Below, piece after piece: positions 7,518-25,056 of a stretch of DNA of 42,961 bases (positions within the stretch are counted from its first letter, which is position 1; every line of letters begins with the position of its first letter). A program made the translations under genes and the position numbers. This DNA is from Lentilactobacillus rapi DSM 19907 = JCM 15042 (GTDB lineage Bacteria; Bacillota; Bacilli; Lactobacillales; Lactobacillaceae): the NCBI RefSeq assembly GCF_001436255.1, contig NZ_AZEI01000086.1:1-42961 (forward strand). Reading direction: 5' to 3'. Below the pieces are notes generated by a model, which worked only from the letters and a program-made list of their open reading frames with translations, was not told where the DNA came from and made no database searches.

Positions 7518-7540
7518 ATTTTGCACCCCTTAAAAAGATA

Positions 7541-8157
7541 AGTGAGCAGAGCAAAGCGGTTAATAACCGGAGCATAAGTCTCCACAACCAGAAATCCTGG
7601 GTTTGGATTTTTGGTTGTGGTGCTTATGTGCAGGTTATTGCTTTGCGGAGCTGTCCTAGAAATAAGTGAGCAGAGCAAAGCGGTTAATAACCGGAGCATA
7701 AGTCTCCACAATCAGAAATCCTGGGTTTGGATTTTTGGTTGTGGTGCTTATGTGCAGGTTATTGCTTTGCGGAGCTGTCCTAAAAATAGTGAGCGGATCC
7801 AAGTGGTTAGGGATCGGAGTGTAAGTCTCCTCGAACGGAAATTCCGGTTTTTGGAATTTTTGTTCGAGGTGCTTACATGTAGATCCCTGCTTGGAGGAGC
7901 TGTCCTAAAAATAGTGAGCTGAACAAAGTGGTTAGAAGTCGGAGCGTAAGTCTCCTCAAGCGGAAATTCCGGGTTTGGGAATTTTTGCTTGAGGTGCTTA
8001 CGTGCAGACTTCTGCTTTGGTAAGCTGTCCTAAAAATAGTGAGCCGAACAAAGCGGTTAGGGATCGGAGTGTAAGTGGCCGCTGAGGGAAATTCCCGATT
8101 TTGGAATTTTTCTCAGTGGTGCTTACATGCAGATTCCTGCTTTGAGCAGCTGTCCTA
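7541..8157 (+). repeat. Hairpin-repeat cluster A: five tandem ~120-nt units
   Basis: Units at 7541-7658, 7665-7782, 7788-7907, 7913-8032 and 8038-8157, with starts 123-125 bp apart. Each opens AGTGAGC, closes GGAGCTGTCCTA (slightly varied in later units) and folds into one long interrupted hairpin. Four helices vary between units while remaining paired: unit 1 AATAACC/GGTTATT, CATAAG/CTTATG, CCACAACC/GGTTGTGG; unit 3 GGGATC/GATCCC, TGTAAG/CTTACA, CCTCGAAC/GTTCGAGG; unit 4 GAAGTC/GACTTC, CGTAAG/CTTACG, CCTCAAGC/GCTTGAGG. Short internal loops are conserved. It fills the gap between divergent xylT and xylR. Function unknown. Confidence 0.9.
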
Positions 8158-8276
8158 ATTCACTGCCACCAGGAGGCGATCCTTGCGCCAATAATTGACT
8201 GATTATTAACTTTTGAAAGGTCTCTTGGCTTTAAACTATTGACACTGGGAAACAAACAATGTAAGTTGATTGAGAT

Positions 8277-8297
8277 AGTTGGTTTGTTGAATGAACT
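8277..8297 (+). promoter_or_regulatory. Putative XylR operator upstream of xylR
   Basis: This 21-nt imperfect palindrome starts AGTTGGTT and ends GAACT. It shares its first eight bases and spacing with the better palindrome before xylA (20634-20654). Upstream, AACAAAC at 8251-8257 gives an inverted match to GGTTTGTT at 8281. Bacillus XylR operators have AGTTTGTT/AACAAACT-type arms, so an operator serving xylR and/or xylT is plausible. Confidence 0.5.
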
Positions 8298-8489
8298 TTC
8301 CAACGAAGGGAATATTAGCACATTTATTTTTGAAAAGCAATCGCTTACATCTCAACCTAATTTTCACCAAGATAAATGGCTTATACTTTTGATAACATCA
8401 TTGTTGCCAAACTTGGTATATTAGTTGTAGAGTATAGAGTTAGTAAAGAATGAAATTTTAGTAAACGTAAAAGGGAAGGAATAAAATCA

Positions 8490-9656
8490 ATGACAAATGC
8501 AACGGGGAGGGAGCTATTTCACAAGCAAAACCTGGATTTGGTTCTCCAACAAATTTTTAATAATAAAAATATTTCACGAATCGACATTTCGCGAACGTTG
8601 AATTTAAATAAGTCAACGGTTTCGGCCCTTTATAATGAGTTGGATGAAAAAGGCATCCTGAAAGAGGTTGGTTCCGGTGAATCTACCAGTGCCGGTGGCC
8701 GCAAGCCGGTGTTGGTTAAAATCAATGAGCGCTATGGTTACACGATGAACTTTGACCTAGGGTTTCGTCACCTTCACGTGATGGGCAATTATGTCAATGG
8801 TAAAGTCTTTTACTACCAACGAATTGAGGTTGGTGGCCGCAATATTCATCAAATTGTGGACATAATTGACCAGCAACTGGCGGCTTCGTTTCAAAATGAT
8901 CAAACTAAGCACGGCCTGTTTGGAATTGGGTTCTCAATTCACGGGATTGTGCAGGATAATCAAATTCTGAATTCACCTTTCATTGATATGGACGGGGTGG
9001 ATTTAGCTGACCGATATTCAACCAAGTTTGATGTTCCCGTTATTTTGGAAAATGAAGCCAATCTTTCAGGCATCTATGAGCGGGACTTTAACGATGGCCG
9101 CGATAAGGATAATATTGTCGCCATTAGTATTCATAAAGGAATCGGTGCCGGGATTGTCCTCGATAAGCAGTTGTATCGTGGCTTTAACGGTGAAGCGGGT
9201 GAAATTGGCCGCTCATTGATGTTTACCGAAAATTTCACGGATAATAAGAATGATAAAGTGGAAGATTTTTGTTCCGAGGATGCCATTATTGATCAGGTGG
9301 AAGCTCAAACAAAGCGGCAACACCTGACCAGAGAAGACTTGGTTAAGATGAATCAAGCCGGTGATCAGATTGTTCAAAAAGAATTGGTTCACTTTACGTA
9401 TGCCATTTCTCGGGTCATCTACAACGTGGCCATTAGTTTTGCCCCCGAGGAGCTGTATATCAATTCACCACTCATTGAAGCGATCCCAGCACTCTTTGAT
9501 GATGTGGTTGCCAACACTCAGAAATTGGGGATGAAGATTCCAATTCGATTAATCGTGCATTCAGGTTACGCGACCTTGTTGGGTTGCTGCTCGTTGGTGA
9601 CTCATCGGGTATTGAATATGGACGACTATGATTTGGCGTTTGAATTGAAAGAGTAG
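8490..9656 (+). CDS. xylR: ROK-family xylose repressor XylR
   Basis: 388-aa regulator. An N-terminal winged helix-turn-helix (SRIDISRTLNLNKSTVSALY, about residues 29-50) precedes a ROK sugar-binding domain with GIGFSIHGIVQ and GAGIVLDKQLYRGFNGEAGEIG. By family analogy it represses xylose genes and releases DNA when xylose binds. RBS GGGAAGGAAT lies 6-7 bp before the ATG. It is divergent from xylT, 11 kb from xylA, and operator-like palindromes lie before both xylR and xylA. The ROK zinc-site cysteines are not clearly present in the usual arrangement, as is common for XylR. An alternative would be a regulator of a related pentose or glucoside. Confidence 0.85.
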   Translation: MTNATGRELFHKQNLDLVLQQIFNNKNISRIDISRTLNLNKSTVSALYNELDEKGILKEVGSGESTSAGGRKPVLVKINERYGYTMNFDLGFRHLHVMGNYVNGKVFYYQRIEVGGRNIHQIVDIIDQQLAASFQNDQTKHGLFGIGFSIHGIVQDNQILNSPFIDMDGVDLADRYSTKFDVPVILENEANLSGIYERDFNDGRDKDNIVAISIHKGIGAGIVLDKQLYRGFNGEAGEIGRSLMFTENFTDNKNDKVEDFCSEDAIIDQVEAQTKRQHLTREDLVKMNQAGDQIVQKELVHFTYAISRVIYNVAISFAPEELYINSPLIEAIPALFDDVVANTQKLGMKIPIRLIVHSGYATLLGCCSLVTHRVLNMDDYDLAFELKE

Positions 9657-9682
9657 TGAGCGACCGGTTGACACGGTTAATA

Positions 9683-9733
9683 AAAGGCCCTGCAAGTAAA
9701 TCCTAATTGGAGGATTTTGCTTGCAGGGCCTTT
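9683..9733. terminator. Bidirectional terminator between xylR and the AraC gene
   Basis: AAAGGCCCTGCAAG pairs with CTTGCAGGGCCTTT, with an inner AATCCT/AGGATT helix. It is the only hairpin between the convergent genes. The preceding bases (AGTGAGC at 9655 and CGGTTAATA at 9674) match the start of the ~120-nt hairpin repeat, so it may be a reduced relative of that family. Confidence 0.75.
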
Positions 9734-9791
9734 CATATGAGGTAGTAGTCGCATTGAAGCGGTTGTGAAATGGTATGGTTATTATTGAAGA

Positions 9792-10595
9792 TTAACCTGA
9801 AATATAATTTTCTTGAATCGCCTTGGCATACTTGGTTGTTTTAGAAGATTTCCGGTATTCGGCAGGGTTATTGCCGTTTAATTCTTTAAAGTTGCGATTG
9901 AAAGTTCGCAGGTTGGAATAGCCAACAGCAAAAGCAATGTCAGTGATGGCCTCATTAGAGTTCTTAAGCAATTCACGGGCTTTTGAAATTCGAAAACTAT
10001 TTAAATATTTTGTATATGAAATATTCATCGTTTTTTGGAATAATTTAGACAAATAAACGTAATCATAGCCAATCGCAGCTGAAATTTGCTTTAGCGTACA
10101 TTCTTCTTGGTAATGGTTGTTAATATAGTCAATAATTAAATGAATAGTTGTCAACTGGGAAGATGCTTTTCGAGGGGCAAGGCGGGTTTGTTCGACAACC
10201 TTATTACACAATCCGTAAAGAAAACTCTTAATGCCAAAAATATTGTTCATATGTTCAAATTCTGGCGGGGTACTATCAAAAATAACCGGATTATCTGGCA
10301 CTTGGTCAGTGTACTGCTCACTGAACGCACTGATGATTTCTGGAGAAAATAAAATAATGGTCGCTGTTGTGTTCGGAGCCATGTCAAATCCATGAATTTG
10401 ATTTGGAAAAACGATGATGAATTGGCGGGGATTGATATGATAGACATGATCGTCAACTTGCTCTTGAACTTGACCTCTTCTGACGTAGAGAATTTCAAAT
10501 GCTCGATGTAGATGAATCGGATAATTTAAGTCTGTAACATCAAAATGTTTGAAGATTGGTTTGGATTCCAAGCCAAAATGCTGGAATAATACCAT
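9792..10595 (-). CDS. AraC-family transcriptional regulator
   Basis: 267-aa regulator with an N-terminal cupin-like sensing half (HLHRAFEILYVRRGQVQEQV near residues 28-47) and a C-terminal pair of helix-turn-helix motifs. The first is LKQISAAIGYDYVYLSKLFQ; the second is ITDIAFAVGYSNLRTFNRNFKELNGNNPAEYRK, split here by the usual linker. RBS GAGGTGAC lies 6 bp before the ATG. It is divergent from the GH120 gene with 140 bp between, so it most likely activates the GH120-MFS-GH30 block in response to a xylo-oligosaccharide or related sugar; the ligand is inferred from context only. Confidence 0.85.
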   Translation of the reverse strand: MVLFQHFGLESKPIFKHFDVTDLNYPIHLHRAFEILYVRRGQVQEQVDDHVYHINPRQFIIVFPNQIHGFDMAPNTTATIILFSPEIISAFSEQYTDQVPDNPVIFDSTPPEFEHMNNIFGIKSFLYGLCNKVVEQTRLAPRKASSQLTTIHLIIDYINNHYQEECTLKQISAAIGYDYVYLSKLFQKTMNISYTKYLNSFRISKARELLKNSNEAITDIAFAVGYSNLRTFNRNFKELNGNNPAEYRKSSKTTKYAKAIQENYISG

Positions 10596-10660
10596 TTGAA
10601 GTCACCTCGATAATGACAAATATTGTCTCATTTATAACAAAAATCAAGCTATCATGCAAA

Positions 10661-10676
10661 TTGTAAGCGCTGTAAA
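10661..10676 (+). promoter_or_regulatory. Putative catabolite responsive element (CRE)
   Basis: TTGTAAGCGCTGTAAA fits the CcpA box pattern (WTGNAARCGNWWWCA) except near its 3' end. It lies in the gap between the AraC gene and the GH120 gene, 60 bp before the latter's start, so glucose repression through CcpA is likely. Confidence 0.6.
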
Positions 10677-10735
10677 GTTAGAGAGGAACAGCGTACAGGT
10701 CGTTCAATCATTGAATTTGGGAGGAGTGCTATTCA

Positions 10736-12679
10736 TTGACAATTTATCATGTTTCAAAGAGTGGCGATGACCAAAATCCTGGGTCAAAGCAAGCCCCGTT
10801 TCTGACGATTAATCAGGCAGCACAAACGGCTCAACCTGGCGATACGATCCTTGTCCATCAGGGAACTTATCGAGAGTGGGTCAATCCACAAGTCGGCGGA
10901 AGCAGTCCGAAAAAAATGATCACTTACCAAGCCGCAAGCAATGAGCGCGTAATCATTAAAGGCTCTGAGATTGTGACTCATTGGGAAGATATGGGGCATG
11001 GCATTTGGAAAGCAGTTGTTGACAATCAGATTTTTGGGAATTTTAATCCCTTTGCGTTTGAGCTGAATGGCGACTGGCTTGAACAGGGAAATGGCTGTCA
11101 CGCGGGAATGGTGTTTGTAGATGGCAAGGCGCTATTTGAAGCTCATGATTACAACGAGATGGCAACGGGGATTGCTGCAGGTCAGGTACGGGAATACATT
11201 ACCCAAAAGACCGTTCCTAATCCAAATCACCAAAGTGGCAAATATAAATGGTTTGCCGAGGTTGGAGCTACCCAAACGACGATTTATATCAATTGTCATG
11301 AGATCGATGTTAATAAACAAACCGTGGAAATCAGTGTTCGAAAGTTTTGCTTTTATCCTCAAAAAACGGGTCTGAATTATATCAAGGTTGCCGGATTTGA
11401 AATGGCGCAGGCAGCCACAAATTGGGCGCCGCCAACTGCAGAACAAGAAGGCTTGATTGGCGTCAACTGGTCCAAAGGCTGGGTCATCGAAAACAATGAC
11501 ATTCATGATTCAAAGTGCTGTGGAATTAGTCTGGGGTCTGTGCCAATTAGCAAGTCAAAACAAAATCAATTTGCGGCCAAGCATGATCGGCCGGGATATC
11601 AGTATCAAATCGAAGCCATGTTTCATGCGTATGCTCAAAACTGGGACAAGGACCATATTGGGTCCCATATCATTCGCCATAACCAAATTCATGATTGCGG
11701 TCAGGCTGGTGTGATTGGGTTCTTGGGTGGGGCCTTTTCAACTATCTCTGATAATCATTTCTACCAAATTGGGACCCGTTATGAATTTGGTGGCTGGGAA
11801 ATTGCGGCCTTAAAATTGCATGCACCAATTGATACCATCATCGAACATAACCTGTGCAATCAATGTTCACTTGGTACATGGCTGGATTGGCAGGCGCAGG
11901 GAACCAGGATCACCAAAAACGTGTATGCAGAAAATTTGCGCGATTTACTTTTCGAGGTGAATCATGGTCCTTTCTTGGTTGATAATAATATGCTCTTGTC
12001 GAATGAGGCGATTAATGAATTCTCACAGGGTGGGGCGTTTGTTAACAATTTGATTGCGGGCAAAGTCCTGATTCAATCTGTCTTGAATCGAACGACGCCA
12101 TACCATCAGCCACACTCGACCCTCATCAAGGGATACGCCTGTATTTATGGTGGGGATGATCGATATTTGAATAATATTTTTATTGGCAAGCCAAATGACC
12201 CTGACTTGAATAAACAGATTGGAACTGCTATCTACAATGGGAGTCCCACCTCGATGGCTGAATTTAAGGCTGCTGTCGAGCAACGACTTCCTGGAGATAT
12301 CGAGTTGTTTGAAACGATTCGTCAGCCAGCATATATTGATCACAACGTTTATCTTGGCGGTGCCCAAGCCTTTGATCAGGAACAAACGACTATTCAACAA
12401 ACTGAATGGCAGGCCAAATTGAAGGCGTCAGTTCAGAAATCAACGGTTGGGCTACAAATCAACATTCCACCAGAATTAATTGACTTTTTAGTGCCAATTC
12501 AAGATACCGAATCGCTTGGAAAAGTTCGATTGGCAGATGCAGATTTTGAAAATCGCGATGGTTCTGAAGTCAGAATTGATGAAGATATTAATCGTGATAA
12601 AAATGCGAGTCTGAGAATTGCGGGCCCAATTAATCAGCTAAAGCCCGGAATGAATCAGCTTAAATTCAGTGGTTTTTAA
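10736..12679 (+). CDS. GH120-like beta-xylosidase, right-handed beta-helix
   Basis: 647-aa protein without signal peptide, so probably cytoplasmic, removing xylose from imported xylo-oligosaccharides. The N-terminus (YHVSKSGDDQNPG, then TINQAAQTAQPGDTILV) is typical of parallel beta-helix enzymes. WLDWQAQG carries Asp384 and LLFEVNHGP carries Glu407. Their 23-residue spacing matches the nucleophile Asp382 and acid/base Glu405 that I recall for the Thermoanaerobacterium GH120 enzyme. The start is a TTG at 10736, 11 bp after GGGAGG; no in-frame ATG is near. Neighbours (AraC regulator, sugar MFS, GH30) support an oligosaccharide utilisation block. Family assignment rests on motifs, not on a search. 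Confidence 0.75.
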   Translation: MTIYHVSKSGDDQNPGSKQAPFLTINQAAQTAQPGDTILVHQGTYREWVNPQVGGSSPKKMITYQAASNERVIIKGSEIVTHWEDMGHGIWKAVVDNQIFGNFNPFAFELNGDWLEQGNGCHAGMVFVDGKALFEAHDYNEMATGIAAGQVREYITQKTVPNPNHQSGKYKWFAEVGATQTTIYINCHEIDVNKQTVEISVRKFCFYPQKTGLNYIKVAGFEMAQAATNWAPPTAEQEGLIGVNWSKGWVIENNDIHDSKCCGISLGSVPISKSKQNQFAAKHDRPGYQYQIEAMFHAYAQNWDKDHIGSHIIRHNQIHDCGQAGVIGFLGGAFSTISDNHFYQIGTRYEFGGWEIAALKLHAPIDTIIEHNLCNQCSLGTWLDWQAQGTRITKNVYAENLRDLLFEVNHGPFLVDNNMLLSNEAINEFSQGGAFVNNLIAGKVLIQSVLNRTTPYHQPHSTLIKGYACIYGGDDRYLNNIFIGKPNDPDLNKQIGTAIYNGSPTSMAEFKAAVEQRLPGDIELFETIRQPAYIDHNVYLGGAQAFDQEQTTIQQTEWQAKLKASVQKSTVGLQINIPPELIDFLVPIQDTESLGKVRLADADFENRDGSEVRIDEDINRDKNASLRIAGPINQLKPGMNQLKFSGF

Positions 12680-13241
12680 ATTTGTACATTTCACCAGCTT
12701 CGTCATTTGGCGAGTGAAGGATGGTTAACAGATAAAGTGAGGTTCCAATAATGAGCGCAGAGCTCACTAATTGGAATCTTATTTTTGTCTGTTGAGTTTA
12801 AGCTAACGTAACGACACATCCTGCTATACCAGCTCTTTCGCCGGACATGATTTGAGAGCAAATTAGTCAGATGACAATTATTGTCCAATAGAAAACAAAT
12901 AGCAGCATATCGACAAGTTTGTTTTGGGAATAAACTAACGTTGTACTTAATTAAGTTACGGTTTTCGAGATTATTCATTAGGTTTGGCTTTTTTTAAGGA
13001 TGAATGAAAGCGGTTGCTAAGAGCCCTGGAGTTTATTGGCGATACAACTAAACGCAGCTAAATGACGGTGACGACCGTCTGAATGATTTGCAATTTTAAC
13101 AAATGTTTGGGCTTTTAAAAATCACTTTTGTTCGGAATCAAGATAGTTTAACGCGTTTCATAAATAAAATTGTAAGCGGATCCACCCAGGTGGGCGGAAT
13201 CAGGCTTGCAGTGAGCATGTCAATAAATAGAAAAGGTGAAG
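12680..13241. other. Intergenic region with a large imperfect inverted repeat
   Basis: No credible gene is visible in these 560 bp. At 12717-12828 AGGATG..TTA pairs with TAA..CATCCT around an inner 15-bp arm pair (GGTTCCAAT.ATGAGC with GCTCA.T.ATTGGAATC). There is no T run, so it is not a standard terminator. The rest is AT-rich; near the downstream gene, TTTAACGCGTTTCA (13147-13160) has a CGCG-centred palindrome like LacI-family operators, followed by a CRE-like box. Confidence 0.6.
13170..13184 (+). promoter_or_regulatory. Putative CRE upstream of the MFS sugar carrier
   Basis: TTGTAAGCGGATCCA matches the CcpA box with one poor position. It lies about 60 bp before the carrier start, suggesting carbon catabolite repression. 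Confidence 0.55.
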
Positions 13242-14546
13242 ATGATGGCACAAAATGAAAATGTCCCAGAATGGCATGGGACGGTTCTAGATAGTGAGCA
13301 ACCCAAGAAACCAATCAAAATTGGGATTGCCACCGGGATTGGCGCACTCTTATGGTTGGGACCTTATTTAGGAGTTAACGGTGTTTTGCTTCCTGCCAAG
13401 GTTCAACAGATTATCCCTTCTGAAAAAGCCCAAGTGGTCGCGTTACTGGCTTCGGCCGCAATGATTGCTGCAACGTTGGCGAACATTGTTATCGGTGGGT
13501 TCTCTGATATTACCCGATCAAGATTTGGTCGCCGGACCCCCTGGATCATTGCAGGATCTGTTGGAAGTTTGCTGACATTGCTGTGGTTTAACATGGCTGG
13601 CACGGTAACAATGATGGTGGTTGCCTGGTGTTCGTATCAAATTTGTTTGAACGCGATTGTTGCTCCATTGCTTGCATTTTTGCAAGACCAGGTTGCGCCG
13701 AAGAACCGGGGAACAATTTCATCAATTTACGCCTTTGGTTATGTAATCGGGCAATATGGTGGTCAAGTTGTTGGTGCGCAATTCTTAAGTCATGTAGGGA
13801 CTGGGATTGTTGTCATGGCCTTCTTAACATTACTTTCTGGACCGCTTGCCGCAATTATCGTTCGGGAACCATCTAGCTTAGGAATGCCGAAGAAGCACTT
13901 TACCATGGGAATGGTTGTTCAAAACTTTATTTTCCCATTACATCATGCAAAAGACTTTTACTTAGCCCTGTTTGGTAAGTTATTAATCAACACGGCGACG
14001 ACTGCCATCATGGGTTATCAATTGTACATCTTGAGTGATTACATTCAGTTAAATACTGGTGGTCAACAGAAGTACATTTCAATCATTAACATGATGCTGA
14101 TGGTAACTGCAATTATTATGTCAATCAGTGCTGGTCCGGTCTCTGACTGGATGAAGAGTCGTAAAATCCCCGTATTCATTGCAGCGTTCTTAGTTGCTGT
14201 CGGGGTTGCCTTCCCAATGTTGAGCCGTAACCCTTGGACTATGTTAGTTTACGGATTACTTGCCGGTCTTGGAATGGGAATCTTCTTTGCGGTTGACCAA
14301 GCCTTGAACTTGGAAGTTTTGCCAAATCCACAAACAGCCGCTAAAGATTTAGGAATCTTGAATTTAGCTAACACTGGTTCACAAATTATTGGACCAATTG
14401 TGGCTGCCTCAATCGTTACAGCTAACCACGGCAGCTACTTTGGAATATTCCCGGTATGTGCCGGTCTTGCCCTTATCGGTGGCGTGATGATTCTCTTTGT
14501 TAATGAGCATCGAGACGTGAAGACGCAAGAAGCAAATGCCAAGTAA
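13242..14546 (+). CDS. MFS sugar transporter (SLC45/GPH-like)
   Basis: 434-aa carrier with about 12 membrane segments. The loop motif GGFSDITRSRFGRRTPWI after TM2 is the signature of SLC45/GPH-like sugar carriers, and a second copy-like motif (GPVSDWMKSRK) follows TM8. It probably imports a xyloside or xylo-oligosaccharide for the neighbouring cytoplasmic GH120 and GH30 enzymes. Start ATG 13242 (or 13245) follows AAAGG; the GTG at 13236 overlaps the RBS. It lies 105 bp before GH30 with an intercistronic hairpin between them. The substrate is inferred from neighbours only. Confidence 0.8.
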   Translation: MMAQNENVPEWHGTVLDSEQPKKPIKIGIATGIGALLWLGPYLGVNGVLLPAKVQQIIPSEKAQVVALLASAAMIAATLANIVIGGFSDITRSRFGRRTPWIIAGSVGSLLTLLWFNMAGTVTMMVVAWCSYQICLNAIVAPLLAFLQDQVAPKNRGTISSIYAFGYVIGQYGGQVVGAQFLSHVGTGIVVMAFLTLLSGPLAAIIVREPSSLGMPKKHFTMGMVVQNFIFPLHHAKDFYLALFGKLLINTATTAIMGYQLYILSDYIQLNTGGQQKYISIINMMLMVTAIIMSISAGPVSDWMKSRKIPVFIAAFLVAVGVAFPMLSRNPWTMLVYGLLAGLGMGIFFAVDQALNLEVLPNPQTAAKDLGILNLANTGSQIIGPIVAASIVTANHGSYFGIFPVCAGLALIGGVMILFVNEHRDVKTQEANAK

Positions 14547-14569
14547 CAGTCAGAATGGTATCAATCAGT

Positions 14570-14600
14570 CCTTAAGGTGTATTGTCTTTGCCACCTTAGG
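14570..14600 (+). other. Intercistronic hairpin
   Basis: CCTTAAGGTG pairs with CACCTTAGG (one bulge) between the carrier and GH30. There is no T run, so partial attenuation or an mRNA-stability stem is more likely than full termination. Confidence 0.5.
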
Positions 14601-14651
14601 ATTGTCATAAATGATGTAAAGACAAATACAAAACAGAGGTGAATTTTATTT

Positions 14652-15980
14652 ATGAGTGCAACACAAATCGAAAGTACTCAAGACTCACAACTTGTAAAGA
14701 GTGAGTTGAGCACCACGACCGAGAAGCTTCATAATAATCTCGAAGTTGGCACTGAAAAGCGTCAAGAAATTTGGGGCTTTGGCCAAACTTTTAACGAATT
14801 AGGTTGGCAGGCATTACAAAGTCTTTCTGAAGAAAAGCGCAATGAGATTTTGGACGATTTGTTCAAGCCTGGTGAAGGCGAAAATTATCGAATCTGCCGG
14901 ATCCCGGTTGGTGCCAGTGATTATGCTTTAAACTGGTATTCATTAGACGAAACACCGGATGATTATGAATTAACAGATTTTTCCATCGAACGTGATAAAA
15001 AGTATTTAATTCCGTATATCAAGGCTGCCCAAAAGCGGAACCCAGACATCGTCTTTTCCGCTTCACCATGGAGTCCGCCTACATGGATGAAGACTAAGCC
15101 CGTGTATAACTACGGAATCTTGAAACATGATGAGAAGACCCAACAAGCTTATGCCAATTACTTTGTAAAGTTCATTCAAGCATATGAGGCTGAAGGAATT
15201 CATATCAGCCAATTGTTCCCCCAAAATGAACCACAACGGGATCAGAAATTCCCATCATGCTACTGGACTGGTGAAGAGTTACGTGATTTCATTAAGAATT
15301 ATCTTGGACCAACCTTTGAAAAAGCAGGGTTGAATACCGATATTTGGTTAGGAACGATCAATTCACCACTCGAAGATACGGAAATGACCAAGGATGAAAC
15401 CACTGACTATCCCGTCATTACCGAAACGGTTCTTTCAGATCCAGATGCTTACAAGTACATTAAAGGGGTTACCTACCAGTGGGCAGGCAAGTCAGTGCTG
15501 CAACGGACTGTTCAATCATTCCCAGAACTGAATTACTTCCAGTCAGAATCTGAATGTGGTAATGGTAACAATACTTGGACGTATGGGGAATATGTCTTTA
15601 ACCTGTTCCGTCACTATATCAGTAACGGCGTAAATGCTTATATGTACTGGAACTCCGTTTTACAAGATGGTGAAAGTACCTGGGGCTGGCTGCAAAACAG
15701 CATGATCTCAGTTGATTCTAAGACTGGACAATCGACGTTGAACCCTGAGTACTATGTCATGAGACATTATGCGCATTATGTTCAACCTGGTGCCCACTTG
15801 CTTTCATATGGTGGTCACGCCGCTGGTGAAGCGACGGCGTATGAAAACCCAGATGGCAGCAATGTTGTGGTTATGTCAAACAGCATGAATCATGATCGTG
15901 ATATTACGATTAATGTTAAGGGTGACACATATAAGGCCCATCTAAAGGCACATTCATTCAGTACGTTTATATTTAAGTAA
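14652..15980 (+). CDS. GH30 family glycoside hydrolase, cytoplasmic
   Basis: 442-aa TIM-barrel enzyme. Visible GH30 hallmarks are GFGQTFNELGW near residue 42, SASPWSPPTWMKT, the acid/base in FPQNEP (Glu193), and a nucleophile region FQSESECG with Glu299 the likely catalytic residue (Glu301 the alternative). It ends in the small beta-domain common to the family. There is no signal peptide, so it acts on imported sugars; beta-xylosidase or beta-glucosidase activity is plausible from the neighbouring GH120 and MFS genes but not decided by sequence. RBS AGAGGTG lies 12 bp before the ATG. A terminator follows at 16020. Confidence 0.8.
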   Translation: MSATQIESTQDSQLVKSELSTTTEKLHNNLEVGTEKRQEIWGFGQTFNELGWQALQSLSEEKRNEILDDLFKPGEGENYRICRIPVGASDYALNWYSLDETPDDYELTDFSIERDKKYLIPYIKAAQKRNPDIVFSASPWSPPTWMKTKPVYNYGILKHDEKTQQAYANYFVKFIQAYEAEGIHISQLFPQNEPQRDQKFPSCYWTGEELRDFIKNYLGPTFEKAGLNTDIWLGTINSPLEDTEMTKDETTDYPVITETVLSDPDAYKYIKGVTYQWAGKSVLQRTVQSFPELNYFQSESECGNGNNTWTYGEYVFNLFRHYISNGVNAYMYWNSVLQDGESTWGWLQNSMISVDSKTGQSTLNPEYYVMRHYAHYVQPGAHLLSYGGHAAGEATAYENPDGSNVVVMSNSMNHDRDITINVKGDTYKAHLKAHSFSTFIFK

Positions 15981-16019
15981 AAATTTTAGTATGGTATCAA
16001 CCAACTTACAAACAAAAAG

Positions 16020-16056
16020 GAGGGACGGGGATCTTGATTCCTCGTCTCTCTTCTTT
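16020..16056 (+). terminator. Intrinsic terminator after GH30
   Basis: GAGGGACGGGGA pairs with TCCTCGTCTCTC (G-T pairs included) around a 7-nt loop and is followed by TTCTTT. It would end the AraC-linked transcript before the secreted protein gene. Confidence 0.8.
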
Positions 16057-16113
16057 ACAAAAATCTTGAATGGTTATTTGTTAAGAATTATTAACTAATG
16101 GAGGAATCGTATC

Positions 16114-18117: not shown

Positions 18118-18238
18118 GTGTATTGGTTAATAATTCAATTTGGTTAATCCTTTATCCTCCGTGTAACCCCATTTACGGAGAGATGAAGAATTAAAATAAG
18201 CTTGCTGCTAAAAATTCTGACTTTTTGGCGGAGCTGAG

Positions 18239-18271
18239 ATGGCAGTGCGGTCAAAAGCACGGCCATTTTTT
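18239..18271 (+). terminator. Terminator downstream of the secreted propeller protein
   Basis: ATGGCAGTGC pairs with GCACGGCCAT (one A/G mismatch) and is followed by a T run, 120 bp after the stop codon. Confidence 0.7.
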
Positions 18272-18306
18272 GTTAGTACCCGCGAATAATAATATAACAA
18301 ATCAAT

Positions 18307-18354
18307 AAAAAGCCATTAACTGAAAGTCGGCTAACTTTCAATTAATGGCTTTTT
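18307..18354. terminator. Bidirectional terminator
   Basis: AAAAAGCCATTAA.TGAAAGT and ACTTTCA.TTAATGGCTTTTT form a 20-bp stem with A and T tracts on either side. It serves the amino acid permease on the minus strand and backs up the terminator before it. Confidence 0.85.
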
Positions 18355-18384
18355 GATCATATTATATGGAACACGAGAGCTATA

Positions 18385-19782
18385 TTACTGTTCCGCATTT
18401 GCCGTAACCAGACTGCGTTGATGCAGGTAGGTCACGCCACCGAAGACGACGGTCCAGATGATGGCACCGACCGCACCGATGATATTCTGTGGAATGAAGA
18501 ACAACGTGATAAAGATAATGGCAAAGAAGGCAATGGTGAGTGGGCTAGTGACCGAATACCAAGGCATTTTGAAGCCATTTGGCAAGAAGTCGGTCGACTC
18601 ACGATACTTTCTGTGGGCGATCATGGCCAGTGCATAAACGATGATGTACATGTCGTTAGATGAGCCGGCAACAATCGTGAAGACGGAAGCAGTGGCACTG
18701 GTTAAACTCATGATCGGGGTGATCAACAAGAAGAGTGCCGAGACAATGATTGCGGCAGCGGGAACGCCATTTTTGGAAATCTTGGCGATATGTTGGTGCA
18801 TCCAGCTATCTTCCGGATTTTCTTGAGCAATTTGATACATGTGGCGGCCAGCTGAGAAGATGAAACTATTCAATGATGATGAAGCTGACGTCAACACAAC
18901 AAAGTTAATGATGGCAGCCGCTGCAGGGAAACCAGCCAATTTGAATACCTGAACAAATGGGCTGCTGGCTGCGTTGAGGTGAGTCCAAGGAATAATCCCC
19001 ATGATGACAATCAAAGCGCCAAAATAGAAGATCAAGATTTTCAGTAAGGTTTCATTAACAGCCTTCTTGATAATCTTGTGAGGAGTTTCGGCTTCACCAA
19101 TGGTAATGCTGACAAATTCGATTCCTTGAAAGGCAAAGAAGACCATCGGAAAGGCGGAAATAAATCCTAAGCCACCATGAGGGAACATTGTGAAGTTATG
19201 AAAAATGTTTTGAATGGATGCATGACCAAGTGGGGTAACTGAATGACTGAACATCATGAATGCCCCGGTAGCGATCAAGGCAAGAATGGCAATAATCTTA
19301 ATTAAAGCGAACCAGAATTCTGCCTCGCCAAATACTTTGGCGGCGATTAGGTTAACTGAAGCCAAAGTTCCCAGGAAGACTAATTGAATAATCCACGAGG
19401 GGATATTGGGGAACCAGAATTGAATGTAAGTAGAAATGGCTGTGATTTCAGCCATGGCACAAAATGAAAGCCCCAGCCAGTAAGTCCAGCCTGTGAAGTG
19501 ACCAACTGTTGGCCCCAAATATCGGGTAATAAAGGCAACAAATGTATGTTGTGAGGGATCAGAATAAAGCATTTCGCCAATTGCCCGCATCATTAAGAAG
19601 AAAAAGATTCCTAATACTAAATAAACTAATAAAATAGAGGGTCCGGTCTTACTGATGGTGGTTCCGGAGCCAAGAAACAACCCGGTACCAATCGTGCCAC
19701 CAATCGCAATCATTTGAACGTTGCGGTTGCTTAAGGACCGCATCGTACCATCTGCATTTTCAGTAATCTGAGATTTTTCCAT
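18385..19782 (-). CDS. APC-superfamily amino acid permease
   Basis: 465-aa transporter with about 12 membrane segments. NVQMIAIGGTIGTGLFLGSG near residue 20 is the amino acid transporter (AAT) family signature; GWTYWLGLSFCAMAEITA and FQGIEFVSITIGEAETP are also family-like. The cargo cannot be fixed from sequence (GABA, lysine or aromatic amino acid permeases all have this frame). RBS GAAAGGAAG lies 8 bp before the ATG. It reads away from xylA and follows an Lrp-type regulator on the same strand, a natural candidate to control it. Confidence 0.85.
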   Translation of the reverse strand: MEKSQITENADGTMRSLSNRNVQMIAIGGTIGTGLFLGSGTTISKTGPSILLVYLVLGIFFFLMMRAIGEMLYSDPSQHTFVAFITRYLGPTVGHFTGWTYWLGLSFCAMAEITAISTYIQFWFPNIPSWIIQLVFLGTLASVNLIAAKVFGEAEFWFALIKIIAILALIATGAFMMFSHSVTPLGHASIQNIFHNFTMFPHGGLGFISAFPMVFFAFQGIEFVSITIGEAETPHKIIKKAVNETLLKILIFYFGALIVIMGIIPWTHLNAASSPFVQVFKLAGFPAAAAIINFVVLTSASSSLNSFIFSAGRHMYQIAQENPEDSWMHQHIAKISKNGVPAAAIIVSALFLLITPIMSLTSATASVFTIVAGSSNDMYIIVYALAMIAHRKYRESTDFLPNGFKMPWYSVTSPLTIAFFAIIFITLFFIPQNIIGAVGAIIWTVVFGGVTYLHQRSLVTANAEQ

Positions 19783-20039
19783 GAACTAACTTCCTTTCAA
19801 AAATTTAAATAATAGCTTAAATTAGAGAATCTCTAATCAAATTGGCATTATCCTACCACAGATGATCATTGTGGTGGCATTTTTGAAAGGAAGTTTTAAC
19901 ATCATTTTTTAATTTTAGAATATTTTTTATGGAAATAAGGAAAAGTGAGCAATCTTCCTATGAAAATAAAAAAATTCTTTCAAAGCATGGAAGCAAGTAG
20001 TGGGAGTTGGACCATCAGTCTCTGATGAGCAGATTTCTG

Positions 20040-20483
20040 CTACTTATCTTCCGGTAGCTTCAGCGGTCGGGGGCCAATATTGGTCGTAAAGGCCACGTTC
20101 GTATGGGTATTTCCAAACTCCTTTAACGACGCGTTAAATTCGTTCAGCTCAGTCATCGTTTTGTAAAAGACTTTGAGCTGAACGGCGGCGTCCCCAGTGA
20201 TGTAGTTACACTCGACGACATTAGGAACTTTTGAAATAAATTCAACAAACTTCGGCATCTGCTTGTAGCTGACATCCAGCCGGACGAATGCTTTGATGAG
20301 GTAGCCTAATTTTTCGTAATTAACATTAGCGGTGTAGCCGTTGATAAATCCATGGTTTTCCAAGTTCTGTAGGCGAACGGAAGCCGATGGCGCAGAAATG
20401 AAACAGCGTTCCGCGATACTTTTAACAGAAGCGCGGCCGTCTTCTTGTATAATGTTGAGAATTTTGCGATCTAATTTGTCCAT
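20040..20483 (-). CDS. Lrp/AsnC-family transcriptional regulator
   Basis: 147-aa protein with the standard layout: an N-terminal helix-turn-helix (LDRKILNIIQEDGRASVKSI and the following SAPSASVRLQNLE) and a C-terminal RAM ligand-binding domain (residues ~70-140; GDAAVQLKVFYKTM). RBS AAGGGAG lies 8 bp before the ATG. It sits 257 bp upstream of the APC permease on the same strand and divergent from xylA. It probably senses an amino acid and regulates the permease and itself. Its stop codon lies in an AAGTAG/CTACTT hairpin (about 19992-20044). Confidence 0.85.
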   Translation of the reverse strand: MDKLDRKILNIIQEDGRASVKSIAERCFISAPSASVRLQNLENHGFINGYTANVNYEKLGYLIKAFVRLDVSYKQMPKFVEFISKVPNVVECNYITGDAAVQLKVFYKTMTELNEFNASLKEFGNTHTNVAFTTNIGPRPLKLPEDK

Positions 20484-20586
20484 CTAATCGGGCTCCCTTC
20501 GTAAACCAAATGATAAATTACATTATATCATCACTAAATTGGGTTTGCTGATCTAGGCATTTCAGCTAATTATGTCAAAAAATCAG

Positions 20587-20623
20587 TGAAAGGGATTGCA
20601 AATAAATTCTAATGTTGTAGAAT
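20587..20623 (+). promoter_or_regulatory. xylA promoter with overlapping CRE-like box
   Basis: TTGCAA at 20596-20601 and TAGAAT at 20618-20623 are 16 bp apart. TGAAAGGGATTGCA at 20587-20600 is one base from the CcpA box and covers the -35 hexamer, so CcpA binding there would block RNA polymerase. Confidence 0.6.
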
Positions 20624-20633
20624 ATAGCTTGTA

Positions 20634-20654
20634 AGTTGGTTGTGCAAACAAACT
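20634..20654 (+). promoter_or_regulatory. XylR operator upstream of xylA
   Basis: AGTTGGTT..GCAAACAAACT is a 21-nt palindrome in which 7 of 10 positions are symmetric (AGTTnGTT / AACnAACT). It lies just after the predicted -10 and before the RBS, the expected place for a repressor, and its arms resemble Bacillus xyl operators. Confidence 0.7.
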
Positions 20655-20678
20655 AATTAAAAATTGGAGGACTTCTAA

Positions 20679-22016
20679 ATGAGTTATTGGAATGTCGATA
20701 AAATCAAGTACGTTGGTACCGGAGAAAAAAAGTCAGGATTAGGGTTCCAGTATTACAATCCAGATGAAGTTGTTGGTGGTAAGAAAATGCGTGACTGGTT
20801 ACGCTTTGCCGTAGCATACTGGCACACATTTGATCAACGACTAGTCGATCCATTTGGCGACGGAACTGCCCTTCGTCCATATGACAAGTACACAGATCCA
20901 ATGGACCAAGCATTGGCAAAAGTGGATGCTGCCTTTGAATTCTACGACAAATTAGGCGTTGACTTCCTTTGCTTCCATGATCGTGACTTAGCTCCTGAAG
21001 GTGACACCCTTCGTGAAACTAACAAGAACTTGGACAAAGTGGTTGATAAGATTGTTGAGAACCAAAAGACTTCCGGAATGAAAGTTCTTTGGAATACTTC
21101 AAACTTGTTCACGAACCCTCGATTTGTTGAAGGTGCCGGTACTTCTCCATATGCAGACATCTTTGCCTACTCAGCTGCTCAATTAAAGCACAGTCTTGAA
21201 ATTGGTAAGCGAGTTGGCTCTGAAAACTACGTATTCTGGGGCGGCCGTGAAGGTTACGAATCACTTTGGAACACTGATATGAAGCGTGAACAAGAACATG
21301 CTGCCAAATTATTCCACATGGCTAAGGATTACGCTAACGAAATTGGCTTCGACGCTCAGATGTTGCTCGAACCAAAGCCAAAGGAACCAACCACTCATCA
21401 ATATGACTTTGATGCCGCAACCACTATTGCGTTCATGAAGGAATACGGCTTGGACAAAGACTTCAAGCTGAACTTGGAAGGCAACCATGCCAACTTGGCA
21501 GGACACACTTATCAACACGAAATCCGCGTTGCTAGAGAAGCTGGTTTGCTTGGTTCCCTTGATGCTAATCAAGGTGACAAGTTAATTGGCTGGGATATCG
21601 ATGAATATCCATCAAATCTTTACGAGACAACCGCTGCAATGACTGAAGTTGTTGAAAATGGCAGCATTGGCCCTCGTGGTGGCTTGAACTTTGACGCTAA
21701 ACCACGTCGTTCATCATTCGAACCAGAAGACCTCTTCTATGGCCACATTGTTGGTATGGATAGCTTTGCTGCTGGTTTGCGGGTAGCTGTTGCTATGAAG
21801 AGTGATGGCGTTCTTGATAACATTGTTAAGAACCGTTACAGCTCATTTGATTCAGGAATTGGTGCCGATATCGAAAGTGGCAAGGCCAGCATGGCTGACC
21901 TTGAAAATTACTCATTAGATAAGACCCAAAAAGAATTGCGTGACGCAACGCATTCTGATCATTTGGAAGAGATTAAAGATACGATTAATCATTATATTAT
22001 CCAGACACTAAAATAG
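20679..22016 (+). CDS. xylA: Xylose isomerase
   Basis: 445-aa enzyme converting D-xylose to D-xylulose in the cytoplasm, with two divalent metal ions. Family motifs are present: [10 protein letters not shown] (catalytic His), FWGGREGYE, the metal-binding [10 protein letters not shown] and [17 protein letters not shown], and GWDIDEYP. The length is normal for the long class II enzymes of Firmicutes. RBS TTGGAGGAC lies 7 bp before the ATG. A XylR palindrome and CRE-like box precede it. The downstream xylB is separated by hairpin elements, an extra promoter candidate and a terminator-like stem, so the two genes may be expressed at different levels. Confidence 0.95.
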
Positions 22017-22212
22017 AGTGCGGAACCAAGCGGTTAGAGACTGGAACCTAAGTTTTCTCCGCCAGAAATCCTGGGCTTGGATTTTTGGTGGAGAATGCTT
22101 AGGTGCAAGTCTCTGCTTGGTGGAGCACATTTCCACTATGTTGCCAGGGGACCATTACCAGGTTTGAAATTTTTGGTGATGGTGCTTATGCGCAGATTGC
22201 TGCTTGGTGGAG
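22017..22212 (+). repeat. Hairpin-repeat cluster B between xylA and xylB
   Basis: Unit at 22017-22133, starting one base after the xylA stop: CCAAGC/GCTTGG, AGAGACT/AGTCTCT, CCTAAG/CTTAGG, TTCTCCGCC/GGTGGAGAA and AAATCC/GGATTT helices, on the same plan as cluster A but with new stem sequences and a GAGCACATTTCC end. A second, 5'-truncated unit (about 22154-22212) keeps the 3' arm (GGTGCTTATGCGCAG..TGCTTGGTGGAGCAC) but has lost most of the partner strand. Confidence 0.85.
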
Positions 22213-22231
22213 CACGTTTCAGCAATATAAT
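22204..22231 (+). promoter_or_regulatory. Candidate internal promoter for xylB
   Basis: TTGGTG at 22204-22209 and a perfect TATAAT at 22226-22231 are 16 bp apart. The -35 lies inside the 3' arm of a hairpin-repeat unit. A second TATAAT-like box at 22246 has no good -35. Confidence 0.45.
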
Positions 22232-22248
22232 GGTTGAACACAACGTAT

Positions 22249-22283
22249 AATGGGAATGGAATTAATTTTCCATTCCCATTTTT
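22249..22283 (+). terminator. Terminator-like stem directly before xylB
   Basis: AATGGGAATGGAA pairs perfectly with TTCCATTCCCATT around TTAATT and is followed by TTT. It ends 7 bp before the xylB RBS, so it could attenuate read-through from xylA or act on translation. Confidence 0.6.
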
Positions 22284-22302
22284 AGATGAAGGAGGAACAC
22301 AT

Positions 22303-23817
22303 ATGACCGACTGCGTATTAGGAGTGGATCTCGGCACGAGTGCCGTCAAGGTCTCGGCCGTCACCCAATCCGGGGAGATTATCGCCCAAGAAGGGATGGA
22401 TTTCCCGCTCAATCAACCCAAGCCAGGCTATGCGGAACAAAACCCCAACGACTGGGTGAACGCAACGACTGTGGCGATTGTTAAATTGATTTTAAATGAT
22501 TCACTGAAACCAGAACAAATTAGGGGGATCAGTTATTCGGGTCAAATGCACGGATTGGTCTTATTAGATGAAGATAATAAGGTCTTGCGGCCAGCCATGC
22601 TCTGGAACGACACCCGTTCTACCAAACAACGCGAAGAAATTATGGCTAAGATGGGTGACCGCTTTGTTGAAATTACCCATAATCAGCCGCTCGAAGGCTT
22701 TACGCTGCCAAAACTCCTTTGGGTGAAGGAAAATCAACCAGAAATCTTTGCCAAAGCGAAGACCATGCTGCTGCCCAAAGATTACCTGCGATTTAGAATG
22801 ACCGGCAAGTTAGCGATCGATTATTCGGATGCTACTGGAACGGTCATGCTGGATGTAGATAAACAGGAATGGAGCCAGGAGATCTTGGACGCCTTCGATA
22901 TTCCAGCCAGTCTCTGCCCACCGTTGGTTCGGTCCATCGATAACACTGGTAATATTGACGAATGGTATTCAATGTATTCCGGCCTCTCAACCGATACGGT
23001 CACATTTGGTGGTGGCGCTGATAATGCCTGTGGGGCCGTTGGAGCCGGAATTGATAGTCCTTCCAAAGTACTTTCAAGTATTGGGACCTCTGGCGTTATT
23101 TTAAAATACGAACCCCAAAAGGAAACCAATTATAATGGTGTCTTGCAGTATGAAGACCATGCCATTCCAGATGCTTACTATTCAATGGGGGTTACTTTGG
23201 CCGCTGGTTTTTCACTCAGCTGGTTCAAAAAGACGTTTGCTGAAAAAGAAGACTTCACTGAAGTTGTAGATAGTGCCGCCAAATCAACAGTTGGTGCCAA
23301 TGGATTATTGTTTGCTCCATACATTGTGGGTGAGCGGGCCCCCTATGCCGATGCTGATGTTCGAGGCAGTTTCATCGGGATTGACGGCATTCACAAACGC
23401 TATGATTTTGTTCGGGCCGTCTTGGAAGGGATCATCTTTTCATTCAGGGATATCTTGGACATCTATGAAAAGGAAGGCGCCAAGTTTGATACGGTTGTGT
23501 CAATCGGTGGTGGTGCCAAGAGCCCATTGTGGCAACAAATTCAAGCTAATATTTTCAATACCAAAGTGGTTTCCCTGCAAAATGAACAGGGACCAGGCCT
23601 AGGTGCCGCAATGTTGGCTGCTGTTGGTCTCGGCTGGTTTGAAAATATGCAAGAATGTACCAAAGTTTTTGTGAAGTTTAAGGATGTATTCCTGCCAGAA
23701 GAAGACGATGTTGTCAAGTATCAGAAATTGCATGACATCTATAAGCAGATTTATCCAAGTACCAAGCAGATTACCCATGAGTTAGTCGCTTATCGTCGGG
23801 AGAATGAAGAACAGTAA
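22303..23817 (+). CDS. xylB: Xylulokinase
   Basis: 504-aa FGGY-family sugar kinase phosphorylating D-xylulose to xylulose-5-phosphate, the entry to the phosphoketolase pathway. [16 protein letters not shown] near residue 5, [23 protein letters not shown], and the C-terminal ATPase-fold motif [14 protein letters not shown] are typical of XylB. The start is ATG 22303 after AAGGAGGAAC; the longer frame from 22234 runs across the terminator-like stem and is not likely translated. It follows xylA and is convergent with an SDR gene, with a shared terminator between them. Confidence 0.93.
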
Positions 23818-23835
23818 GCCACTAGGTTAATAACA

Positions 23836-23872
23836 AAAAAGAACCGTTGTCCCGAGGGAAGCGGTTCTTTTT
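23836..23872. terminator. Bidirectional terminator between xylB and the SDR gene
   Basis: AAAAAGAACCG pairs with CGGTTCTTTTT, with A and T tracts at the two ends, in the gap between convergent genes. Confidence 0.85.
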
Positions 23873-23887
23873 GCATCGTTATTGAAA

Positions 23888-24664
23888 TTATCTGTAAACC
23901 ATCCCACCATCAACCAGAATTGTTTGACCGGTAATGTAGTCTGAATCTGGGGATGCTAAGAATGAAACGAGGTTGGCAACATCTGATGGTACTTCGTAAC
24001 GACCTAATGAAATATCAGCCGTGTATTGGGCAAAAGCGTCACCTGGTTTGAGGGATGGATCGTTCTTAACCATCTCGGCGTCAATCCGATCCCACATTTT
24101 GGTTTTGGCAACGCCGGGTGCATATGCATTGACATTAATCTTGTACTTAGCGAGCTCTTTTGAAGCTGTCTGGGTAAACGAACGAACCACGTGTTTGGTA
24201 GCGGAATAAGTGCCTAACATTGGATAGGATTCGTGGCCGGCAATACTGGAGGCGCTGATAATTTTACCGCCTCCACCTTGTTTGATGAACTGGTCGGCGG
24301 CTGCCTGGGTACCAAAGAGCATCCCGAAGGCGTTAATTGAGAACAGCCGTTGAAGTTCGTTTTCGTCGATCTCAAGTAACGGCTTAACCGCTTCTACCCC
24401 AGCATTATTAACGAATACGTCCAAGCGGCCAAAAGTATCAACCGCATGTTTTACCAAGGCAAATTGGTCATCTCGCTTGGAGACGTCGCCAGAAAAACTG
24501 GTTACCTCAATTCCTTTGTCCTTAAATTCTTTCTCAGTTTCAGCTAATAAATCCTTATTGATATCGTGAAGTACAATTGCAAACCCATCTTTTGCCAGTC
24601 GTTCAGCGATGCCTTTCCCCAAACCACCTGCTGAACCAGTGATAACTGCAACTTTTTCTGCCAT
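23888..24664 (-). CDS. Short-chain dehydrogenase, (S)-acetoin/diacetyl reductase type
   Basis: 258-aa classical [13 protein letters not shown] nucleotide-binding motif near residue 10, NNAG near 88, catalytic Ser and YSATK near 153, C-terminal [11 protein letters not shown]. It belongs to the same group as the SDR at 796-1569. A role in recycling NADH by reducing diacetyl/acetoin, or in polyol oxidation, is plausible; the position beside xylB may instead mean a xylitol or pentitol dehydrogenase. RBS GGGGAGGAAT lies 5 bp before the ATG. Three hairpin-repeat units lie directly upstream of its RBS. Confidence 0.85.
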
Positions 24665-24686
24665 GATTAATTCCTCCCCAAAAACA

Positions 24687-25056
24687 AGTGAGCGGATCCA
24701 AGCGGGAATAATCGGAATATAAGTCTCCTTCGGTGGAAATCCTGGTTTAGGGGATTTCTGCCGAAGGTGCTTATATGCAGATTATTGCTTGGAGGAGCTG
24801 TCCTAAAAAACAAGTGAGTGGATCCAAGCGCTTAGAGATCCGAGTGTAAGTCTCCTCGAACAGAAATTCCGGTTTGGGGAATTTTTGTTCGAGGTGCTTA
24901 CATGCAGATCTCTGCTTGGAGGAGCTGTCCTAAAACAAGTGAGCGGATCCAGGCGGTTAGCAACCGGAACGTAAGTCTCCACAAGCAGAAAGCCAGAATC
25001 CACTAATTTCACATGGACACTTACACGTTGATCTCCACTTGGAAAAGCCGTCCCAA
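24687..25056 (+). repeat. Hairpin-repeat cluster C: two good units and one degenerate
   Basis: Units at 24687-24805 and 24813-24932 keep AGTGAG.GGATCC starts and GGAGGAGCTGTCCTA ends. Their helices differ but pair: AATAATC/GATTATT, ATATAAG/CTTATAT, CCTTCGG/CCGAAGG in the first; AGAGATC/GATCTCT, TGTAAG/CTTACA, CCTCGAAC/GTTCGAGG in the second. The third (24938-25056) keeps the 5' half but has a disrupted apex and altered 3' half. The cluster fills the gap between the divergent SDR and MFS genes. The remaining 25057-25300 is AT-rich with nothing recognisable. Confidence 0.88.

Follow-up and report, generated by a model that had tools for sequence, protein, structure and literature searches.

REP sequences are high-copy intergenic palindromes, often located by stop codons, and are thought to be moved in trans as single-stranded DNA by RAYT. 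IS200/IS605 elements insert directionally without target duplication, and their left target resembles the right end of the element; in integrons, attC sites form imperfect hairpins whose stems vary and whose loops are fixed, and they are used as a folded single strand. In the literature cited here, REP are 20–40 nt long with a tag tetranucleotide, GTAG or CGTC (PMC3733652), are reported as protein-binding sites (PMC2817692) and, in E. coli, are reported to affect translation when they lie at most 15 nt from a stop codon (PMC12306157). BOX, RUP and SPRITE of Streptococcus pneumoniae are described there as small structured interspersed repeats thought to be parasitic; BOX distances follow the intergenic distribution, and those of RUP peak 50–150 bp away (PMC3049150).

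The repeats analyzed here are best read as comparable in type to REP or BOX repeats, though both their fold and their target rule are new. They occur in a 42,961-nt window (the whole stretch of DNA analyzed, from Lentilactobacillus rapi) as units of about 118–122 nt that run from AGTGAGC to GTCCTA, all on the + strand. The first array begins 22 nt off the start codon of a minus-strand sugar transporter gene (Sugar_tr/MFS; 6105–7526) and comprises five full units, at 7540–7659, 7664–7783, 7787–7908, 7912–8033 and 8037–8158; the second is 98% identical to the first, and the fourth is 96–97% identical to units in an array on contig C26. The second array adjoins xylA, the plus-strand xylose isomerase gene (20679–22016; named from an earlier note on this DNA and from conservation), and its unit at 22014–22134 starts on the stop codon, the first AG being part of the TAG (22014–22016); the 3′ part of a partial unit was matched by nhmmer at 22156–22213. 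The third array begins 21 nt off the start codon of a minus-strand short-chain dehydrogenase gene (adh_short; 23888–24664), with full units at 24686–24806 and 24812–24933 and a degenerate last unit at 24937–25056, which has lost the hairpin; G011 has a single unit at this site, and the two are 85% identical. The starts of the nine covariance-model matches, the degenerate unit included, lie within three bases of those in the earlier note, which had also named the partial copy. Folding of the + strand compared with shuffles gave z of −5.95 to −10.68 for seven of eight window units, and no significant fold for the degenerate unit (z −0.76; 50 of 200 shuffles equally good).

The family is genome-wide, and the window is a small part of a larger set. 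A covariance-model search of the source Lentilactobacillus genome, as the earlier note had proposed, found at least 150 units, with related units in Secundilactobacillus, Paucilactobacillus and Levilactobacillus; this dispersal removes the tie to the xylose genes that the note had drawn. Within the 302,490 bases of the source genome examined there were 233 units in 104 arrays. At E 1e-6, five members of the genus gave no match at all and three others gave one or two, and contig C12 (534 kb) held 1 of the 87 arrays against 16.3 expected, among the matches listed. Identity with a described Lacto- structured RNA, which the note had raised but left undecided, found no backing: the whole window matched none of 4227 Rfam families at the gathering score. 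Permissive Rfam searches of positions 7500–8300 and three loci of other genera returned sub-threshold matches only. Most of these were to microRNA precursors, and MIR6459 ranked highest, at 32.2 bits (E 3.9e-5) where its cut-off is 100. Since PMC2864571 gives the Lacto-int motif without an Rfam number, it lies beyond the reach of such a search. No description of the placement rule set out below, or of anything like this repeat family, was found in full-text searches of one open-access library.

Analysis of 138 distinct units, in an alignment made up of the best-scoring matches and fitted to the covariance model, revealed standard pairs in 98.8% of pair cells, compared with a shuffled mean of 84.0% and with 37.9–45.5% when partners were slid by 1–3 columns; 29 of the 41 pairs showed two-sided change. 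When 42 units drawn from four genera were aligned independently with MAFFT, 90.6% of cells were paired and 36 of 39 pairs varied on both sides. Pairing was kept through two-sided change in both alignments, which upholds the earlier view that structure is under selection, “in RNA or in single-stranded DNA”. Of 197 units, 196 folded more stably as the + strand (among them 112 of 113 by antisense neighbors and 52 of 52 by sense neighbors), and fold energy did not differ between units with antisense and sense neighbors (p 0.33). That the fold is kept equally whichever strand the neighbor transcribes argues against a role in the neighbor's mRNA. Conserved G-U pairs, such as columns 42–91 in 129 of the 138 units, are possible on the + strand alone.

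The 13 most similar pairs of units (≥97%) differed by nine one-sided and no two-sided changes, and the ratio comparing two-sided with one-sided changes climbed with distance (0.25, 0.37, 0.74, 1.55 and 2.90). This is the pattern of stepwise mutation and selection, and the idea that compensation arose when one arm was copied onto the other by folding back was rejected. As judged by comparison of the units, stepwise compensatory change preserves the fold of one particular strand. Helix alleles recombine freely, with 64 combinations of helix 2 and helix 3 alleles. The repeats are a warning that strong covariation alone need not signify a regulatory RNA.

Placement was scored by gene edges, at least 96 of which were sampled in one genome; the 5′ end counted as lying at an edge if it was on a sense stop codon or 10–30 nt away from the start codon of an antisense gene, next to the Shine-Dalgarno sequence of that gene. 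Of 96 arrays, 80 had the 5′ end at a gene edge, where 16.1 (sd 3.3) would be expected. Start-side placement was found for 50 of 60 5′ ends but 2 of 50 3′ ends, and stop-side placement for 30 of 36 and 6 of 46, respectively. Where a unit lies depends on the gene next to its 5′ end and not on the gene it points to; the shared direction of all window copies, described in the earlier note, stands. The note's overall interpretation is partly supported, mobility and the gene-edge rule being absent from it. When three placement classes were distinguished (upstream of an opposite-strand Shine-Dalgarno sequence, at a stop codon, and after a terminator), 17 of 27 array starts in G006 and 17 of 23 in other genera fell into one of them. 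Predicted promoters beyond the array that would drive the antisense neighbor gave 8.30 versus 8.06 (p 0.30; 50 arrays).

Among the 161 units having array mates, the nearest relative was in another array for 153 and in the same array for 8, so unit similarity does not support growth of arrays by local tandem duplication; adjacent units were 75.7% identical compared with 73.2% for random pairs. In 14 near-identical pairs compared, likeness generally ended at AGTGAGC and GTCCTA. Spacers are array-specific (identity within an array 0.716 versus 0.455 shuffled, in the 20 arrays that have at least two), which leaves room for local tandem duplication, and they resemble the array's own left flank (0.637 versus 0.420, last 3 nt). 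The first unit outscored the last in 55 of 72 arrays, and in 40 of 58 when full units alone were counted, and the share with a relative of ≥95% identity elsewhere was 37% for first, 51% for middle and 23% for last units (first versus last, p 0.13). The idea that the newest units lie nearest the gene is only partly supported: last units are weaker, but the first position is not where units with a recent spread are most frequent.

Comparison with G011, a sister species with 97% identity in xylA, covered 63 orthologous sites, of which 52 had units at the same start, one had a truncated unit and 10 had none. Unit numbers differed at orthologous sites (for example, 4 versus 1, 5 versus 3 and 4 versus 0), and many same-site units were only 70–85% alike, with the flanking 100 nt 85–100% alike. 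Alignments read by eye revealed seven start-side sites where one species has units and another has none, the leader being otherwise continuous (G000 versus G011 at sites 7, 15, 45, 57 and 58; G000 versus G004 at sites 14 and 21). TCC was seen, again by eye, at the left joint and at the right end of the element in the seven empty/filled comparisons, with near-TCC (CTC, CCC) in two. Left and right flanks of 68 arrays matched no better than shuffled ones at most lengths and offsets, although a few tests reached p 0.01 or less, uncorrected, and site 15 had an apparent 8-nt duplication by eye; no clean target-site duplication of the kind left by MITEs emerged at most flank lengths and offsets. No case of movement inside a single species was observed. 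Dispersal, sharp boundaries, and differences in sites and units between close species are what these comparisons of sequence demonstrate.

A search for a mobilizing enzyme in 24 genus genomes found Y1_Tnp (PF01797) in 7, Transposase_20 (IS110-type) in 6 and RVT_1 in 8. None of them tracked unit copy number, and with one Pfam family each, Y1 transposase, IS110-type transposase and reverse transcriptase were rejected as drivers: Y1_Tnp was absent in 17 genomes, among them G003, G004, G006, G014 and G018 with 50 to at least 149 units, and three genomes that carry no units (G002, G007 and G017) do have reverse transcriptase. No longer autonomous element sharing the unit ends was seen.

The units share with REP/BIME and their RAYT the character of high-copy intergenic hairpins near stop codons (for the stop-codon distance, as reported in PMC12306157). 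However, they are about 120 nt long rather than 20–40 nt (PMC3733652), lie head-to-tail in one direction with interior loops, and also occur upstream of antisense Shine-Dalgarno sites, and the 17 genomes lacking Y1_Tnp include copy-rich ones. Like BOX, RUP and SPRITE of S. pneumoniae, itself a relative of the lactic acid bacteria, they are small structured repeats with tandem modules variable in number; the distances given in PMC3049150 show no hugging of gene edges by BOX or RUP, in contrast to the present units, and BOX is modular (boxA-boxB(n)-boxC), whereas the present arrays repeat the hairpin as a whole. There was no Rfam match either way. Directional insertion, and TCC at both joints by eye, may recall IS200/IS605, but no Y1, IS110-type or RT domain tracks the repeats. 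Variable stems with fixed loops recall attC; however, these tandem units have no gene cassettes between them, and attC core sites were not recognized in them.

The units are probably short non-autonomous mobile elements of about 118–122 bp that are recognized as a folded single strand; their movement we infer from the comparisons above. The fold would be kept because the + strand, as single-stranded DNA or an RNA copy, is recognized and inserted by a putative cellular or mobile-element enzyme. Insertion would be directional, with the 5′ end joined beside a gene edge and the far end lacking a consistent target duplication; further units of like orientation would pile up there, those farthest from the gene tending to decay. 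Spacers that copy the left flank of the array are a problem for this explanation, as simple insertion does not predict them; local duplication or recombination might. Other observations against it are that none of the three enzyme families searched tracked the units, that no clean target-site duplication emerged, that recently spread units are not gathered next to the gene and that no movement inside a single species was seen. It is unlikely that no dedicated mobility exists, with old repeats kept alike by homologous recombination or gene conversion and array length changing via unequal exchange: such a process would suit the array-specific, flank-like spacers, the replacement of units at fixed sites and the free recombination of helix alleles, but conversion is unable to seed new sites, as the seven start-side sites filled or empty between species would demand, and direction and gene-edge placement are left unexplained.

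Similarly improbable is a role as cis-acting RNA elements in the neighbor's mRNA ends (stability, RNase III processing or translation control), placed by selection. Positions that hug Shine-Dalgarno sequences and stop codons, occupancy mostly kept between sister species while units change, and the E. coli REP precedent near stop codons, as reported in PMC12306157, speak for such a role; yet the two main placement classes put opposite strands in mRNA, the stable fold is almost always that of the + strand (112/113 and 52/52), and the conserved G-U pairs exist on it alone. Copy number, occupancy kept between sister species and the report of REP as protein-binding sites (PMC2817692) would also fit a chromosomal site under host selection, such as one serving a nucleoid or topoisomerase protein, that has spread through occasional copying, but the genus members with few or no matches, the rapid unit turnover and the single array on contig C12 among the matches listed make this very improbable. 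The reading as mobile elements could be extended, tentatively and with considerable doubt, to a new class of mobile DNA in which the folded strand is the substrate and the target mimics the element's own right end. A GTCCTAA subfamily would go mainly to anti-Shine-Dalgarno sites (TCCTCCTAA-like) and subfamilies with other ends mainly to stop codons, ends and target changing together; such elements would sit on the stop codon, sometimes supplying it themselves, or in the narrow untranslated stretch that separates the promoter from the ribosome-binding site.

If the reading as mobile elements is right, many genes of food-relevant lactobacilli harbor small mobile repeats at their untranslated edges, and these repeats offer a natural test both of folded-strand recognition by shape with free sequence and of selfish DNA living between promoter and ribosome-binding site. 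No plasmid record with an empty site was recognized among the 30 of 278 rows listed. Copies of the unit were present on 8 plasmid records, and a minority of arrays carried extra, shorter modules of the 3′ half.

The window contains three unit arrays, all placed on the + strand by the covariance model and nhmmer: five units at 7540–8158, one unit and a partial one at 22014–22213, and two units with a decayed one at 24686–25056. An earlier note had described same-direction copies around the xylose genes; both points hold for these arrays, but a link of the family to these genes is not supported, since nhmmer revealed 233 non-overlapping units (204 with at least 100 columns) in 302,490 bases comprising the window and the stretches surrounding matches. 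The intact unit folds into a single long hairpin with four helices and fixed internal loops. The covariation that the note had attributed to this ~120-nt repeat was confirmed: in an alignment of 138 distinct units fitted to the covariance model, 98.8% of cells were paired and 29 of 41 pairs had changed on both sides, and none of 500 shuffles, which leave relatedness in, matched any of five measures. A separate alignment, made with MAFFT and covering 42 units of four genera, was scored with a structure derived from that same alignment and showed two-sided change in 36 of 39 pairs and pairing in 90.6% of cells, with 0 of 500 shuffles (relatedness again left in) as good. Because the 13 unit pairs at ≥97% identity differed by nine one-sided and no two-sided changes, compensation is stepwise. 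Arms within one helix (helices 2, 3 and 4) were tightly linked (NMI 0.60–0.91) and adjoining helices weakly (e.g., 0.40 versus 0.27 shuffled); the helices behave as though reassorting.

In the whole L. rapi genome, a single-unit query gave 107 blastn matches, and the covariance-model search proposed in the earlier note gave at least 150. The 233 units fall into 104 arrays; three of these consist of partial units only, and the others hold between one and six full units. Within the genus, 19 of 24 genomes had a match at E 1e-6 and five had none; four carried at least 149 units, and three only one or two. Under stricter filters, the 17 genomes searched from other genera, just one of them in the same family, gave no match. 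Around xylA in named genomes, units were present at 19 of 80 loci (4 Lentilactobacillus, 5 Secundilactobacillus, 2 Paucilactobacillus and 8 Levilactobacillus). Eight plasmid records (seven L. plantarum, one L. parabuchneri) carried a copy, and the phage records searched carried none. Among the matches listed, only 1 of 87 arrays lay on the 534-kb L. rapi contig C12 (16.3 expected, p 1.5e-6), and arrays were dense on the other contigs.

Comparison of arrays with genes, called by our own ORF script, revealed a gene edge at the array beginning in 80 of the 96 arrays with both neighbours; when position and orientation are random, 16.1 would be expected (sd 3.3), the highest of 5,000 draws being 29. 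With an antisense 5′ neighbour, the distance to its start codon was 10–30 nt (usually 18–21) in 50 of 60 arrays, compared with 2 of 50 at 3′ ends; these distances are somewhat biased, because start codons were chosen partly on Shine-Dalgarno score. With a sense 5′ neighbour, the end of its stop codon fell between −8 and +12 in 30 of 36 arrays, compared with 6 of 46 at 3′ ends. A pyrimidine-rich anti-Shine-Dalgarno stretch directly preceded the unit in the 47 start-side arrays with listed flanks, and in several stop-side arrays the unit contributed part of the stop codon. A third class, directly after a terminator, was seen in other genera, whose 23 array starts (six internal units dropped) divided into 2 at gene starts, 10 at stops, 5 after terminators and 6 elsewhere; the Lentilactobacillus genome G006 gave 4, 12, 1 and 10 of 27 (three dropped), so that 16 of 50 array starts outside L. 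rapi belong to no class. In L. rapi, single genes (439 and 262 aa) at C25:43588 and C66:73947 are flanked by arrays with both 5′ ends toward the gene. In plasmids from L. parabuchneri and L. plantarum (L061–L063), the one unit present runs opposite to the usual direction: its 3′ end overlaps the termination codon of a LacI-type gene that adjoins an alpha-glucosidase operon.

Arrays beginning AGTGAGC were mainly on start sides and those with other beginnings mainly at stops. In L. rapi, the former numbered 44 at start and 17 at stop sides, versus 3 and 8 for the latter (p 0.012). When G006 and the other genera were added, the hand-tallied counts, with relatedness left in, were 47/19 versus 6/28 (p 5e-7). 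By eye, the AGTGAGC subfamily ends in GTCCTAA, resembling its own anti-Shine-Dalgarno target, and the sequence that follows units of the AGAGTG subfamily is GCTAGATAA-like, with stop codons within.

The + strand gave the better fold in 196 of 197 units, and fold energy was similar beside antisense and sense neighbours (−58.2 and −59.6 kcal/mol, p 0.33). Since opposite unit strands are transcribed with the neighbour in the two placement classes, the fold is not maintained for the neighbour's transcript. What remains is a role for the folded + strand as DNA while units move, or for an RNA copy that works in trans. In a narrow test with a single Pfam model per enzyme kind, neither Y1_Tnp (7 of 24 genomes), Transposase_20 (6 of 24) nor RVT_1 (8 of 24) tracked unit copy number.

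The nearest relative lay in another array for 153 of 161 units with array mates, and identity hardly differed between adjacent and random units (0.757 versus 0.732). In the 14 near-identical pairs shown, similarity usually ran from AGTGAGC to GTCCTA; one pair also had ~15 nt of the left flank in common, and in two the right-hand spacer was shared. In the sister species (G011), 63 of 80 sites (33/40 and 30/40, from 100 prepared flanks) were comparable: 52 had the same unit start, one was truncated and 10 lacked units, two of these with visible remnants and two with poorly aligning flanks. The more distant G004 had units at 17 of 27 sites, some possibly paralogues. Many same-site units were 70–85% alike, some 94–99%. 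At the xylA stop codon in 15 genomes, compared partly by eye, five carried units, their offsets differing slightly, and the other ten had none within 420 nt. In seven start-side filled/empty comparisons by eye, the empty-allele leader resumed directly past GTCC of the filled allele, and 7–13 extra nt separated the anti-Shine-Dalgarno from AGTG. No consistent duplication was found at the far end; a few uncorrected tests gave p ≤0.01.

Spacers within an array were alike (0.716 versus 0.455) and resembled its left flank (0.637 versus 0.420, over three nt). Units farthest from the gene were weaker: the first outscored the last in 55 of 72 arrays, and partial units numbered 16 in last, 10 in middle and 1 in first place. 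An L. rapi cluster of eight AATAATC-type units (94% linkage) was gene-proximal in seven of eight arrays, differing in this from other clusters.

Among known kinds, REP and BOX-type small interspersed repeats come closest; compared with these as described in PMC3049150, PMC12306157, PMC2267715, PMC8632094 and PMC2864571, the units differ in their size and fold, their direction and their placement at gene edges. No published description of the family was found in the open-access literature searched. In L. rapi, at C36:158234-161354 (L090) and also on contigs C66 and C84, a full unit is followed by several ~83-nt copies of its 3′ half (model columns ~50–122), a layout recalling BOX-type modules.

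Three ORFs near a separate array in the window matched no Cas family, one being SBP_bac_5 and two lacking a Pfam match. That array, at 31350–31989, is CRISPR-like, with a ~28-nt repeat (GTATTCCCCACGTATGTGGGGGTGATCC) at a ~61-nt period, and is presumably of type I-E by its look.
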